Below, piece by piece: positions 1 to 4,312 of a stretch of 58,021 nt of DNA. This stretch comes from an uncultured SAR86 cluster bacterium. GTDB lineage: Bacteria; Pseudomonadota; Gammaproteobacteria; Magnimaribacterales; D2472. The translations under genes were made by a program, and so were the position numbers. Where the stretch lies: NCBI GenBank assembly GCA_902513515.1, contig CABXNE010000005.1:1-58021 (forward strand), read 5' to 3'. Numbering within the stretch: the first letter of the stretch is position 1; each line of letters starts with the position of its first letter. The notes below the pieces were generated by a model that saw only the letters and a list, made by a program, of their open reading frames with translations, was not told the origin of the DNA and made no database searches.

Positions 1-606
1 ATGAGTGCTTTGACTAAGAATATCAGAGGCATCAAGATCAAAATGTCGTAATTGATCCATAAATTCAGCGATATTGAAATTTATGTACTTGCTATTTAAG
101 CCAGAGATAGTTTTTATTATTGCCCGAAGTGTGATGTCCAGATCTCGAGATGCAACTAAGCCCAACCTATCAACAGATAATTCTTTTGCTCGAGATAATC
201 TCATGCCTTCTGGAGAAGAATCTTGTATTTCCGAGGTATGATCAAATAAAAGGTGACCTAGTTCATGGCCAATAACAAAATCTAATTCCCTCTCCTCTAA
301 GAGAGTTACTAATGCAGAGCTAAGAATGACAACAAAAACGTCTTCAACGCCTCTGTAGCATTTTGCATTAATTTCGTTGCTGGCAAAAACATATAAATGA
401 ATCTTCTCAGGAAGTATATTAAGATTTACACAAACTCTCTCTAGAGCGGAGTATATTAAAGGAGATATTGTTTTAGTTATTAAAAGACTTGAGTGAACCT
501 CTAGAATTTCATATTTTTGAGATTTAGAGACAGTATTTTTTTTTACTGATATGTCTTCTGAATATCTAAATTTTGTAACAAATTCAGCAGCCGTATCAGC
601 TTCCAT
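1..606 (-). CDS. M48-family zinc metallopeptidase, C-terminus beyond window
   Basis: The frame is open from an ATG at 606 to the first base of the window (202 codons), so the C-terminus is missing. A zinc-binding HELGH lies in the context DFVIGHELGHLLFD (about residues 114-127), followed about 27 residues later by SRAKELSVDRLG, where the Glu and Asp fit the third-ligand region of M48 peptidases. The upstream part, with a NEINAKCY segment and an exposed-strand region before the helix, also has the M48/HtpX-like layout. No membrane helix is seen in the visible part. The start overlaps the end of the upstream TerB-domain gene by 11 bp, so it is the last visible gene of the chaperone operon. I infer a soluble protease acting with the Hsp70 module; the substrate is unknown. 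An ImmA-like minigluzincin is a weaker alternative. Confidence 0.8.
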   Translation of the reverse strand, partial: MEADTAAEFVTKFRYSEDISVKKNTVSKSQKYEILEVHSSLLITKTISPLIYSALERVCVNLNILPEKIHLYVFASNEINAKCYRGVEDVFVVILSSALVTLLEERELDFVIGHELGHLLFDHTSEIQDSSPEGMRLSRAKELSVDRLGLVASRDLDITLRAIIKTISGLNSKYINFNIAEFMDQLRHFDLDASDILSQSTH

Positions 607-1771
607 GTTTCTTTTTTAATCTTGCCAAGGCATCAAGCATTCGTTGCGCATTATCTCTCTCATTTCTAGCTTGCAAAGAATTCAATCGGCCGTTCCATTT
701 TCTAAATTCTTTTTTTATAAATGCCAAGGAATCTTCTTTATTAAGATTCATATCTAAACCAATTAAAGCCTCATCACTAGTAGAGTCACTTGAAGATAAT
801 TTTGCATCAATTGATATCAATGTCTTGTCTTTCATTTTTTGAACTTCGTCATAGTCAAGATCTAATTTCGTTGAGAGTTCTTTTACGAGATTTAATTCAG
901 TTTCGTCAGCAAATCCATCAGCTGCAAGTACATCTAAGCATAATTCAAGTGCAATAAATTTATCAGTATTTGAAGCCACTAGATTAAATGCGTCAATAGT
1001 GGAATCAATGTTTTCTGATACCTTGAAGTTTTTTGGTAGACGAAGAAAAGCTTTGTAACTAGAATCAAGAGCTTCATTTAACTGTTTCTTCATTTCATTT
1101 TGTTTATCTTCAGAGATATATGTATCTAGTGTATTTGCAATCCATTTTTTAATTACCAAGCCCTCTGACTTATCAAGCGAGCCATCAGCCATGGCCATAG
1201 CCATTGCAATTGGAACGGTAGCAACCCTTGCTAAATCTCTATGCTCAGATTGATCTCTATACCCTTTATCTTCGAACTTAGTGGTAAAGGTGTTTATTGC
1301 ATATGAAATACATTTATCTTTGCTGTCAATATACCCACCTTCGAAAGATATGGGGTTATCTGATGAATAAAGGTATGCTCTTACTTCAATTACTTTACTA
1401 CCAGATCTTGGTGGAAGCATGATTTCTTTTACAAATGATGTCAGGTCTACCCAATCTGGAAAATATTGGTTTTCTTTAACAATTCCAAGATCTACTGAGT
1501 GAAGAAATACCCTTGTATCATCTTCAGTTGTTTGCTCATATAAGCTTAAAATCGGATCATCAGAACTCTTATCGAAAAAATTAATAGCGCATTCTAAGTT
1601 AGATGCATAAGATACTGAAAGAGCTCCCTTAATCTGTATTTTAAAATTTCCATCATTATTATCATAATCTCTAACTGCTTGAACTTGAAATGCCTCAGAT
1701 TGTTTTCTAGAAGACTCAGGCCAATCTGGAGGTCCTAGAAAAGCATCGACTATATCATTAAAAAATCCCAA
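596..1771 (-). CDS. TerB-domain protein with degenerate J-like C-terminus
   Basis: 391 aa. Residues about 20-170 form a predicted beta-rich domain I cannot name. Residues about 180-318 look like a TerB/DjlA-type helical domain: AMADGSLDKSEGLVIKKW and LAADGFADETELNLVKEL are paired acidic-helix repeats typical of that fold. The last about 50 residues (FIKKEFRKWNGRLNSL, then ERDNAQRMLDALARLKKKH) resemble a J domain in helix pattern but lack the HPD tripeptide. TerB plus J is the order seen in DjlA. The start is TTG at 1771, placed directly after the TAA of the Hsp70 gene and in the same frame; an AAGG eight bases upstream of the TTG is a credible ribosome site. The gene probably encodes the J-like or adaptor partner of the adjoining Hsp70; this is inference. 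No signal peptide or membrane helix is evident. Confidence 0.7.
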   Translation of the reverse strand: MGFFNDIVDAFLGPPDWPESSRKQSEAFQVQAVRDYDNNDGNFKIQIKGALSVSYASNLECAINFFDKSSDDPILSLYEQTTEDDTRVFLHSVDLGIVKENQYFPDWVDLTSFVKEIMLPPRSGSKVIEVRAYLYSSDNPISFEGGYIDSKDKCISYAINTFTTKFEDKGYRDQSEHRDLARVATVPIAMAMAMADGSLDKSEGLVIKKWIANTLDTYISEDKQNEMKKQLNEALDSSYKAFLRLPKNFKVSENIDSTIDAFNLVASNTDKFIALELCLDVLAADGFADETELNLVKELSTKLDLDYDEVQKMKDKTLISIDAKLSSSDSTSDEALIGLDMNLNKEDSLAFIKKEFRKWNGRLNSLQARNERDNAQRMLDALARLKKKHGS

Positions 1772-3280
1772 TTATTCAACCTTAAAATCATCAATATCAA
1801 TATCTGTATGAATATTTGAATTGCCTGCTGTTAGGTCAATCTCTGCCTTTCTTCCGCTCTCTACATCTAAGAACGTGCATTTCATAGTTTGATTTACATG
1901 ATATGAAAATGTTACTTCTACTTTTTGACCAGAAGGCCTACCCTCTGGTAAATCAAGAGCTCCCTCCCACATCGTATGAACATAATCAGGATCACTCTCT
2001 TCAATATTTGATTCAGTAACTCTGCAATTAATTGCTGTTTGATTATCGTGGGCTGTTTGATATTCCTTGGTAACCGAACATGGAATTTTATCTCCCTTTC
2101 TAATTAATGAATCATTTTTAAGAAGATTTTTTTGATGATGATCATCATAGCTGAGAATTATAGTTCCAAAAAATTTTGCAGTAACCTCTGCAATATTTAC
2201 TTTTGAAAGTGCTTGTTTCTGCAAAGGATTAAGCTTTGCAGGATCTGCTTTATAGGCTACATATAAAGCAGCGCCTAGAGCAACCGCTTCATCTGGGTTG
2301 CCAACAGATTTAGGAACTTTTTTAAAAATTTTCTCAACGCTAGATTGAATGCAAGGCATTCTTGTAGACCCTCCGACTAAGATTACCTCATTAATATCAG
2401 TAATTGAGAGATTGGCTTCATCGATGGCATTCTCACAAGTCATTTCAGACTTTGCAATTAGCGTAGAGATAGCATCTTCGAACTCAGCTCTAGAAATTTC
2501 AATTTTATGCCGACCTTTGGTTGTTGCAATTTTTATAGAAGTTTTCTCTTTTTCACTAAGAATTTTTTTTTGCTCTTCAGCATCATTCTTAGTGAAGTCT
2601 TCTGGCTCTAGATCTTCGCCCACTTGGTCTTTCCACTTGCTTCTAACAATTTCAATTAATTTTTCATCAAAATCATCTCCTCCGAGCAAGGTTACTCCAT
2701 CGGTATTGATAACTTCAATATCTGAGCCTTTAATTTCAATAATTGAAATATCAAAAGTTCCTCCGCCTAAATCATAAATTGCATATGTTCCATTTAACTC
2801 CTCGCCAGATGAATAGGCATAATAAAGAGCAGCGGCAGTTGGCTCATTTATTATGTATTTAATTGAAAGACCTGAAGCGTTGGCTGCAGCTAGAGTAGCT
2901 TCTCTTGCCTTATTTCCATAATTCGCTGGAATTGTTACTACTGCTTCGGAGATTTCACCAATTTGCGTTTGAGCGTCATCTTTTAATTTTTTTAAAACAA
3001 AACTTGAAAGAGATGTAGCATTATATTTTTCTCCAAAAGCTTCATACTCCTTTTCTTCCCCCATGACTCTTTTAAACCTGCCAAAACATTTACTATCTTC
3101 TCCATATACTCTTTGTGCAGTTTTTCCAACAATAACATTACCTTGATCGTCAAATAGCACAACTGAGGGGGTAATATTATCTCCCTGGCTATTAACAAGC
3201 ATTACAGGTCTTCCAGTAGCATCTAAATGGGCTATTGCTGAATAAGTGGTTCCAAGATCAATACCTACTAAATTACTCAT
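1772..3280 (-). CDS. Short Hsp70 (DnaK-like) without helical lid
   Basis: 502 aa against about 640 for DnaK. The ATPase domain is complete: GIDLGTTYSA (6-15), VTIPANYGNKAREA (115-128), DLGGGTFD (170-177), LGGDDFD (199-205) and ILVGGSTRMP (300-309). The substrate-binding part (about 380-500) holds only the beta-sandwich; the protein ends at IDIDDFKVE with no alpha-helical lid and no EEVD-like tail. The acidic-hydrophobic interdomain linker of DnaK (LLLDVTPLS) is replaced by a divergent stretch near 360-375. It overlaps the GrpE-like gene by 8 bp upstream and abuts the TerB-domain gene downstream, so co-translation is likely. This is a second, specialised Hsp70 rather than the housekeeping DnaK (no dnaJ next to it); a lidless chaperone should bind clients weakly or be run by partners. 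Confidence 0.9.
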   Translation of the reverse strand: MSNLVGIDLGTTYSAIAHLDATGRPVMLVNSQGDNITPSVVLFDDQGNVIVGKTAQRVYGEDSKCFGRFKRVMGEEKEYEAFGEKYNATSLSSFVLKKLKDDAQTQIGEISEAVVTIPANYGNKAREATLAAANASGLSIKYIINEPTAAALYYAYSSGEELNGTYAIYDLGGGTFDISIIEIKGSDIEVINTDGVTLLGGDDFDEKLIEIVRSKWKDQVGEDLEPEDFTKNDAEEQKKILSEKEKTSIKIATTKGRHKIEISRAEFEDAISTLIAKSEMTCENAIDEANLSITDINEVILVGGSTRMPCIQSSVEKIFKKVPKSVGNPDEAVALGAALYVAYKADPAKLNPLQKQALSKVNIAEVTAKFFGTIILSYDDHHQKNLLKNDSLIRKGDKIPCSVTKEYQTAHDNQTAINCRVTESNIEESDPDYVHTMWEGALDLPEGRPSGQKVEVTFSYHVNQTMKCTFLDVESGRKAEIDLTAGNSNIHTDIDIDDFKVE

Positions 3281-4205
3281 TTTTGTCTCCTTTTACGTAA
3301 ACTTCAATTTTAGGGTATTGTAAAACTTCCTTTTGTTCAGCTTCAATGTAAAAGCCTTCTTTCAGTGTTTGTTTTACTAAAAAGATTTTATCTTCATCTG
3401 ATGTTTCTATACTTACCCATTCATTTGCAGGAGGAATTCCAAATTCATCAGACTTTACTGAAGCACCCTCATTTATCGAAAATTGCTTGACTCCTATTTC
3501 ATCAATTATGTCTTGTAGATTCTCATATACAAAGATAACTTCATTTTTAGTTTCCTCTGATATGCTTTCATCCATATTAATTGTTTGGCAGATATTGGAA
3601 ACACGAATCAGCTTCTTAACAAATTTCTTAATTATCTGTAAGTCATAACCCATTTTAAGCCTGTCAATTTCCTTGTCTTTTTCATTGAGGCTTTCTTGAA
3701 GCAAGCCAAAAGATTCAAAAATCTCATCATATCTCTGCGATATATGTCCGAGAAGCTGTTGATGAGAGGTGGTTTGAGATTTTAAATTATTTGAAAAAGC
3801 ATCAAACTCATTCTTCACTCCTGAGCTAATTTTTGAAAAGCCTTTATTTAAATCAACAAACTTATCTAATAGATTTTCTGGAAAAGTGATTAATTGATTT
3901 TTATATTTTGCTCTCCATCTTAAAAGAATGTAATTAATAATAAGAGAAATAAACAACAAAATAGCAATCGAAATATAAATAATAAGCATTGAACTTTGGC
4001 TATATATAGGCTGTTGTGTTTGAGAGTATTCTCCAATGTCTGCTGCTTTTGCCTCTGCTGCAGCTTTTGCCTCTGCTGCTGCTTTTGCTAGAACTAAATC
4101 ATTTGTTGGTATTTGTTGGTCAGGTTGAATTATTTCTGCCCTAATGGAAATATTATTAAATAAAAGTAATATTGATACGAATAGAAAAAGGATAAGTTTA
4201 TACAT
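3273..4205 (-). CDS. Membrane-anchored GrpE-like nucleotide exchange factor
   Basis: 310 aa from the ATG at 4205. Residues 1-23 look like a cleavable signal peptide (MYKLILFLF...ISIRA). Residues 40-55 are a TolA-like Ala/Glu/Lys repeat (KAAAEAKAAAEAKAA). A transmembrane helix follows at about 73-95, closed by RWRAK, which places the rest in the cytoplasm. Residues 110-190 are predicted coiled coil. Residues 190-305 match the GrpE pattern: a long helix with FVKKLIRVSNICQ, then ENLQDIIDEIGVKQFS, then the beta wing LVKQTLKEGFYIE...YPKIEVYVKG. GrpE homodimerises through the coiled coil and opens the Hsp70 nucleotide cleft; here the factor would hold its Hsp70 at the inner membrane. A longer start at 4250 adds 15 hydrophobic residues and is less likely. 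It is the first large gene of the operon. The GrpE call is from pattern only. Confidence 0.68.
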   Translation of the reverse strand: MYKLILFLFVSILLLFNNISIRAEIIQPDQQIPTNDLVLAKAAAEAKAAAEAKAADIGEYSQTQQPIYSQSSMLIIYISIAILLFISLIINYILLRWRAKYKNQLITFPENLLDKFVDLNKGFSKISSGVKNEFDAFSNNLKSQTTSHQQLLGHISQRYDEIFESFGLLQESLNEKDKEIDRLKMGYDLQIIKKFVKKLIRVSNICQTINMDESISEETKNEVIFVYENLQDIIDEIGVKQFSINEGASVKSDEFGIPPANEWVSIETSDEDKIFLVKQTLKEGFYIEAEQKEVLQYPKIEVYVKGDKNE

Positions 4206-4312
4206 ACAATTTATTATGATCAGAAATGATAGGTTAATCAAATTGAGCATAACTTAGAAAATGCATCTAAGTTGAGTGGCTTATAAATGAATTTGTAACC
4301 TGCCTTAAGTTC

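Follow-up and report, generated by a model that had tools for sequence, protein, structure and literature searches.

A conserved four-gene module with a lidless Hsp70 that lacks both contact residues of the HPD aspartate in an uncultured SAR86 cluster bacterium

Gene arrangement at the locus

The window studied here is the entire 58,021-base contig CABXNE010000005.1 (C5) of an uncultured SAR86 cluster bacterium (genome G000; assembly 1.09 Mb, 63.6% complete). Four minus-strand genes at positions 1-4250 encode, in order of transcription, a predicted membrane-anchored GrpE-like protein, an Hsp70, a TerB-domain protein and an M48-type peptidase, and the open reading frames together with Pfam and fold evidence bear out this order as given by the first-pass annotation of this DNA. 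What is new here, judged from alignment, is a distinct Hsp70 clade in which the ATPase residues are intact and both partners of the aspartate of the J-domain HPD (His-Pro-Asp) motif are lost in seven of seven members. Counts out of seven refer throughout to the window plus six related loci, and the eight loci mentioned below are these plus L175.

3273..4250, minus strand: predicted membrane-anchored GrpE-like protein (open reading frame; 325 amino acids from the ATG at 4250, 310 amino acids from an internal ATG at 4205)
1772..3280, minus strand: lidless Hsp70, 502 amino acids, with nucleotide-binding domain (NBD) and the β-part of the substrate-binding domain (SBD-beta) (open reading frame; Pfam HSP70, 2.4e-92; one clade with the other seven module Hsp70s, 100/100)
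596..1771, minus strand: TerB-domain protein, 391 amino acids, comprising a β-sandwich, TerB and a helical tail (open reading frame; Pfam TerB, 4.5e-6; structure model)
1..606, minus strand: M48-type metallopeptidase, first 202 amino acids (open reading frame running off the contig end; Pfam Peptidase_M48, 2.7e-12)

All four genes had been described as overlapping, which holds for two of the three junctions (8 and 11 bases), whereas the Hsp70 and TerB genes abut without overlap. The TerB frame opens with TTG straight after the Hsp70 TAA and in the same frame, and read-through of this TAA (window 1766-1780, minus strand) would yield a single Hsp70-TerB chain.

Conservation of the module

Related loci were sought in a collection of 84,980 species with both TerB proteins, that of the window and that of genome G144, as queries. 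At least six were found, in four alphaproteobacterial metagenome-assembled genomes (MAGs), in Gammaproteobacteria AqS3 (the same locus as that of G144) and in one Bacteroidetes MAG, with taxa taken from the record titles. The locus on G144:C158 (L007, L009, L017) is the same as L014 and was counted once, and its TerB gene is surrounded by the same four genes. The GrpE-like, Hsp70 and TerB genes are found in identical order and on the same strand in 6/6 of these related loci, as a profile check also showed, and the M48 gene comes next in 5/6. Because the loci were chosen by the TerB gene alone, the other module genes provide independent evidence of conservation, and the four-gene arrangement is beyond chance and conserved among distantly related bacteria. 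The gene-neighbourhood comparison that the first-pass annotation had called for thus supports it; of the two findings that were to count against its reading if both failed, a GrpE- or J-type structural match and co-occurrence of the genes, the GrpE match and the co-occurrence stand.

The eighth locus, L175 (G848:C27, 2827-5568), shares its Bacteroidetes genome with L015 and came to light in a search of the module genomes for canonical DnaK. It is a reduced copy in which a short Hsp70 gene adjoins a gene for a second TerB protein bearing the conserved tail motif described below; GrpE-like and M48 genes are absent from its 11-kb contig. Over the eight loci, the Hsp70 and TerB genes are present in 8, the GrpE-like gene in 7 and the M48 gene in 6.

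A distinct Hsp70 clade without the HPD-receiving residues

The window's Hsp70 scores 310.5 bits against Pfam HSP70 (PF00012; cut-off 20.6), and the best stretch ends at position 507 of 599, before the lid. The seven module Hsp70s are 474-502 amino acids long and have no SBD-alpha lid, so the helical lid is lacking as first annotated. The DnaK equivalog TIGR02350 (306.4 bits; cut-off 822.55) and the HscA equivalog TIGR01991 (280.5 bits; cut-off 708.55) are not reached. In a tree of the NBD parts alone (27 rows, including 13 of the 88 comparators described below, every seventh) the eight module Hsp70s group together at 100/100 and separately from DnaK, HscA and HscC, in an analysis where the bootstrap had not settled and long branches meet. 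Matches to the Hsp70 in plasmid (265) and phage (38) records are all below 60% identity, with a maximum of 39.5% among the matches listed. A similar short C-terminal tail, I-[DE]-[DK]-F-[KL]-V-[ES], is shared by five of the seven module Hsp70s and might serve for docking.

In the DnaK-DnaJ structure, as described in PMC8215388 (section 8), D35 of the HPD motif forms hydrogen bonds with R167 and Q378 of DnaK, H33 touches L391 and P34 touches P419, and basic residues of the J domain meet E206, D211, E217 and D477; a role of R167 in the J contact is also given in PMC7289447. These positions were compared between the module Hsp70s and 88 comparator Hsp70s (80 viral-contig loci and 8 from relatives of G000, together 80 distinct sequences), with Escherichia coli DnaK, HscA and HscC in addition. 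Each comparator locus contributed one open reading frame, which had to pass a check for two Hsp70 motifs and a length criterion of 450 amino acids, and 88/88 loci did so. R167 is replaced by Y, N or Q and Q378 by Y or F, so that neither the arginine nor the glutamine is found in any of the seven module Hsp70s (0/7 each), versus 88/88 comparators and all three E. coli proteins for both. The Hsp70 of L175 likewise has Tyr at both places. The codons concerned in the window are as follows.

2855..2857, minus strand: codon of Hsp70 Tyr142, which replaces DnaK Arg167 (HPD-Asp contact; alignment)
2261..2263, minus strand: codon of Hsp70 Tyr340, which replaces DnaK Gln378 (HPD-Asp contact; alignment)

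In addition, D148 is changed in 7/7 and kept by 87/88 comparators, D477 is lost in 7/7 and kept by 86/88, and E206 is lost in 5/7; D211 lies in a gap, as it does in 23/88 comparators. The linker residues L390 and L392 are replaced by polar, small or charged residues. In the alignment, the lost positions include some of the J-docking and interdomain path (D477, D148, L390 and L392) beside both HPD-aspartate partners. The ATPase residues D8, T11, K70, E171, D194, T199 and D201 are kept in 7/7. Of 80 positions in the NBD that are near-invariant, 48 are conserved throughout the seven module Hsp70s and 11 are missing from every one of them, R167 and Q378 both being among the 11. Losses of T199 and D481 were considered as distinctive and dropped, T199 being intact in 7/7 and N being present at 481 in 85/88 comparators.

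The TerB-domain protein and its tail

The TerB-domain protein is composed of three parts in its structure model (predicted local distance difference test score, pLDDT, 81.9), the first of which had been overlooked before.

1274..1687, minus strand: N-terminal β-sandwich, residues 29-166 (model; β-sandwich structural neighbours at Z about 7-8, weak)
812..1261, minus strand: TerB helical domain, residues 171-320 (Pfam and model; 2ou3 at Z 10.7, 2h5n at Z 9.6)
602..775, minus strand: three-helix tail, residues 333-390, with the conserved signature E[FY]-x-KWN-x-R, J-like at most and without HPD (model and alignment)

Pfam TerB (PF05099) is matched at 27.4 bits (cut-off 24.4) by the window's protein, and all seven members match the family, which confirms the original domain call. 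Foldseek with the model returned mainly β-sandwich proteins, none at 0.001, and a profile search of the PDB gave weak EF-hand and TerB matches. A membrane stretch is predicted at the N terminus of 5/7 TerB proteins and is absent in those of the window and L015; here and below, membrane stretches are by simple hydropathy.

The signature E[FY]-x-KWN-x-R is present in 7/7 tails. HPD is absent from the tail in 7/7, the sole HPD string (in L014) sitting inside the TerB domain, and Pfam run on the seven tails alone gave no DnaJ match. When aligned by hhalign with 30 J domains from the window's relatives, the tail matched weakly, with P 0.0041 and an alignment confined to the first 20 columns. In a sliding-window control, in which windows with fewer than four usable rows were dropped, tail windows ranked first of 114 for the whole J set and for the canonical set (P 0.003-0.009, best 0.0033); against seven DjlA-like J domains, the top rank went to coiled-coil windows of the GrpE-like protein and not to the tail. 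A J domain in the tail was therefore set aside as unproven. From the first-pass description of a J-like stretch without HPD, the absence of HPD stands and the J identity is not confirmed.

These results also bear on whether the module is an ordinary accessory DnaK set, in which the tail would be a working, divergent J domain and the Hsp70 changes would be drift. The three predicted helices of the tail, its first rank against two of the three J-domain sets and the largely kept P419 and E217 of the Hsp70 speak for this explanation. Set against them are the 7/7 tails without HPD or a Pfam DnaJ match, the higher scores of GrpE-protein windows against the DjlA-like set, and the loss of R167 and Q378 in 7/7 while 48/80 near-invariant positions are kept in all seven, and we regard such a set as improbable. 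With no HPD in 7/7, weak J similarity and loss of the Hsp70 residues that answer HPD, the sequences make a standard J partner for the module Hsp70 unlikely. The absence of HPD combined with the loss of both NBD partners of its aspartate is the strongest clue that the cycle may be run differently.

A predicted membrane-anchored GrpE counterpart

In the 310-amino-acid form of the window's GrpE-like protein, residues 1-19 and 69-97 are hydrophobic, and a part with the architecture of GrpE follows.

3915..4001, minus strand: second transmembrane stretch, residues 69-97 of the 310-amino-acid form, with the basic run RWRAKYK at its end (hydropathy)
3291..3878, minus strand: GrpE-architecture part, residues 110-305 of the 310-amino-acid form, with a helix of ~100 residues, a short helix and a C-terminal β domain (AlphaFold2 model, Foldseek)

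By the positive-inside rule the GrpE part would be cytosolic. A transmembrane stretch precedes the long helix in 7/7 members and an additional N-terminal one is present in 5/7. No Pfam family is above its cut-off for the window's copy. Among the first 25 of 36 families, ordered by member number, GrpE (PF01025) is the only one that matches more than one member (3/7, best 3.2e-4), and the window's copy is not among the PF01025 matches listed. The C-terminal part aligned by hhalign with 24 GrpE sequences (23 from relatives of G000 and one from a Rhodococcus plasmid) at 94%, E 1.2e-7, over 131 columns, versus 0.1% each for two parts of the TerB protein used as a control with the same set. Foldseek with the model placed GrpE or GrpEL1 at all of ranks 1-8 (E 4e-5 to 2e-3, each with probability 1.00); the match after these has E 0.53. 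VIA placed GrpE at ranks 1-6 (Z 8.1-11.3), with the first unrelated row at Z 7.5 and another GrpE at rank 31 (Z 6.5). Local pLDDT is mostly 79-87 for residues 191-300 and lower for the first half of the long helix. A profile search of the PDB did not retrieve GrpE; the other chains that it gave all had E values of at least 0.14. The fold and profile comparisons support a GrpE fold for the C-terminal part, and hence the predicted membrane-anchored GrpE counterpart that had been proposed. The broader proposal, that each standard partner of Hsp70 has an altered counterpart in the module, holds for GrpE by fold and profile and is not supported for the J protein, the tail being J-like at most.

The part in front of the long helix is longer in L014 and L015. 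In L014 a separate gene just upstream (3137-3904) encodes a copy of residues 1-245 of the GrpE-like protein at 52% identity, without the GrpE part, which fits a receptor-like front part, as if it were a separate sensor copy. Signal transduction is one explanation to which these features lend themselves: in a receptor-linked switch, the M48 peptidase would be under the control of Hsp70 docked on the membrane GrpE and would in turn cut one regulator. A layout like that of a receptor, with front parts that vary in length, the duplicated front part in L014 and an Hsp70 that is intact but rewired are in its favor. Beside the loci compared, however, neither a regulator nor a target gene turns up repeatedly, the sole recurring neighbor being a DUF2167-type protein at L010 and L013 (L175 was outside this comparison), and we consider the switch rather unlikely. 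The DUF2167 protein itself (Pfam PF09935, tested in L010) lies at L010 3019-3900 and its relative at L013 9821-10546, on opposite sides of the module, at 2/6 loci.

The M48 peptidase

The peptidase matches Pfam PF01435 at 47.3 bits in the window (cut-off 20.3), and M48 is matched in 6/6 members. Both HExxH and E[IL]SxDR are present in 6/6, in agreement with the initial assignment to the M48 type.

253..267, minus strand: HELGH zinc motif, residues 114-118; RAKELSVDRLGL downstream of HELGH (both motifs in 6/6 members)

The five complete relatives are 340-363 amino acids long, and the window copy is cut by the contig end. No membrane segment is predicted in any of the M48 proteins (0/6, the window's being partial). 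A profile search of the PDB gave weak matches to HtpX and BepA chains (best HtpX, 0.0082), and the best HtpX equivalog models reach 18.6-18.7 bits, below their cut-offs of 369 and 275. A TerB-like C-terminal domain in the M48 protein was considered and rejected (hhalign P 0.14).

Comparison with known systems

The module resembles DnaK-DnaJ-GrpE in having an Hsp70 with intact ATPase residues and SBD-beta and a partner of predicted GrpE fold. It differs in lacking the lid, R167, Q378, D148, D477 and an HPD partner, and in carrying the GrpE part on a membrane protein. HscC of E. coli with DjlB/DjlC is likewise an extra Hsp70 with adjoining partner genes, but HscC retains R167, Q378 and D148, and no GrpE, TerB or M48 gene is annotated in the stretch around it. 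DjlA combines TerB and a J domain in a membrane protein. The TerB domain, the C-terminal helical tail and, in most module members, the membrane stretch are shared with it; the module tail lacks HPD and the module protein has an extra β-sandwich, and no Hsp70 gene lies beside djlA in the stretch read. In E. coli YegD, R167, Q378 and D148 are also absent (V, W and T, in an uncertain alignment with a very long branch); YegD, in contrast, has no SBD, its K70 is replaced, and no module genes are annotated beside it. The peptidase shares HExxH, the Pfam M48 match and weak profile matches with M48 proteins of the HtpX/BepA type and differs in having no membrane stretch and in falling far below the HtpX equivalog cut-offs.

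An operon on the Rhodococcus pseudokoreensis plasmid NZ_CP070617.1 (L008, 5601-11989) encodes a hypothetical protein, a 510-amino-acid Hsp70, a TPR protein, GrpE and an FtsK/SpoIIIE protein. It too is an accessory Hsp70 with its own GrpE, and this Hsp70 joins the module clade at 89/84 with long branches. Unlike the module Hsp70s it keeps R167, Q378 and D148, and no TerB or M48 gene is annotated beside it.

Prokaryotic Hsp70 types are counted as three, DnaK, HscA and HscC, in a passage of PMC8215388. Searches of the open-licence literature listed no paper on such a module, which is weak evidence given that subscription papers mostly fall outside it, and agrees with the initial remark that no described system of this four-gene make-up was known to the annotator. 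The word TerB does not occur in the text of PMC11019930 on DnaK duplication.

Distribution and genomic setting

Relatives of the TerB protein were sought in 39 related genomes, without a match (0/39), and in 368 other genomes of the class, with one match (G144); a two-row TerB profile found none in 397 other genomes of a phylum draw (0/397; the draws overlap). No match to the Hsp70 was found at E 1e-60 in 99 other genomes. The module is probably an accessory one, spread horizontally. The grpE, dnaK (over cut-off) and dnaJ families are each present in 23/25 genomes of the window's group, G000 being among the 25, with none of the three in G000's own incomplete assembly, and canonical dnaK is over cut-off in 5/6 module genomes, the exception being that of L011. 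The module is thus an addition to the cell's chaperone set and not the sole set, at least in those genomes.

The module lies at a contig end, and in three congeners the matching acyl-CoA dehydrogenase gene is preceded by other genes, both of which could point to a module wrongly joined to the contig in assembly. Its GC content of 0.337, against 0.350 for the rest, and the presence of the same module in other public contigs make such an artefact highly improbable. A trmA-like gene of the congeners was not found in G000, an empty answer that proves little for an incomplete assembly.

Beside L175 lie genes for a type II restriction endonuclease and a methyltransferase, beside L011 one for a candidate defence protein (PDC-M34B/M55C models) and beside L012 one for an IS200-type transposase. 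These neighbors and the very sporadic spread of the TerB protein speak for an anti-phage or conflict system, in which the periplasmic part or TerB would sense infection and the Hsp70 cycle would release or activate the M48 peptidase, which would cut phage or host proteins. Defence-like neighbors occur, however, at 2/7 related loci, L175 being counted here (the flank test used 10 flanking proteins chosen from six loci, with no L013 flank among them), the four window proteins gave a best E of 0.0029 against PADLOC-DB 2.0.0 with none at 0.001, and no TerB relative was confirmed in viral contigs. This explanation is a possible but not a favored one; it concerns purpose and is not mutually exclusive with the membrane machine considered below. 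A phage origin of the module was rejected, with no TerB relative confirmed in viral contigs and no relative of the window's Hsp70 obtained there with patterns drawn from that protein. The Hsp70 alignment found relatives in 585 stretches of viral contigs, and the best 80 loci held no open reading frame matching the GrpE-like, TerB or M48 profiles at 0.01. In plasmids neither the window's TerB protein nor the GrpE-like protein of L012 had a match; the L012 TerB protein matched TerB domains in 26 plasmid records (E 0.02-0.08 among the matches listed) and gave two weak TerB matches in phages. The Bacteroidetes module is immediately preceded, on its own strand, by an ADP-ribosylglycohydrolase gene (Pfam; L015 2955-3746).

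Proposed mechanism and role

The reading we prefer, with a probability of about one half, is that the module encodes a dedicated accessory machine, built around a distinct subfamily of Hsp70 and anchored at the inner membrane, which would run without the HPD switch and act with a cytosolic protease in protein triage. The soluble lidless Hsp70 would bind clients in an ATP-driven manner, with an ATPase cycle that would not have a standard J domain as its trigger. In place of the J protein, the adaptor may be the TerB protein, whose divergence follows that of the Hsp70 best (Spearman 0.82 between TerB and Hsp70 distances, 21 non-independent pairs). Through the membrane GrpE, nucleotide release would be located at the membrane, with client release following from it, and this GrpE may respond to its own variable periplasmic part; clients would be cleaved by the M48 peptidase. 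Lacking a lid, the Hsp70 may bind clients quickly and briefly, as suits hand-over. On these predictions the likely role is to triage proteins, whether damaged or foreign, at the inner membrane. The first-pass suggestion of unfolding coupled to cleavage at this membrane may hold.

Several observations weigh against this membrane triage machine. The M48 gene is missing beside 2/8 loci and the GrpE-like gene beside 1/8, and the core of the module may therefore be the Hsp70-TerB pair. Some J contacts remain in the Hsp70, with P419 kept in 7/7, E217 in 6/7 and L391 hydrophobic (I, V or L), and D393 is mostly Glu (6/7), a mild change. The window's own TerB protein is without a membrane stretch and its M48 peptidase is seen only in part. 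The overall confidence of the GrpE model is low (AlphaFold2 pLDDT 66.7, predicted template modelling score 0.35), and VIA warns that Z values under about 13 may reflect an arrangement common in helical proteins. Distance correlations other than that of TerB with Hsp70 are weak (GrpE-Hsp70 0.29, GrpE-TerB 0.21, GrpE-M48 0.40, Hsp70-M48 0.51 and TerB-M48 0.14).

More tentatively, the module could be an HPD-free bacterial Hsp70 machine in which both halves of the contact were lost together, the TerB adaptor drives the ATPase and a receptor-like GrpE places release at the inner membrane for hand-over to the metalloprotease, possibly in an anti-phage response. In all systems tested, according to the review PMC8215388, J domains no longer stimulated Hsp70 once the His or the Asp of HPD had been replaced. 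A natural Hsp70 with intact catalytic residues and neither of the two partners of the HPD aspartate, accompanied by an HPD-less partner protein and by a GrpE part on a predicted membrane protein, makes it testable whether and how an Hsp70 cycle runs without this switch, and the module also opens a test of how chaperones may be coupled to a protease at the membrane.

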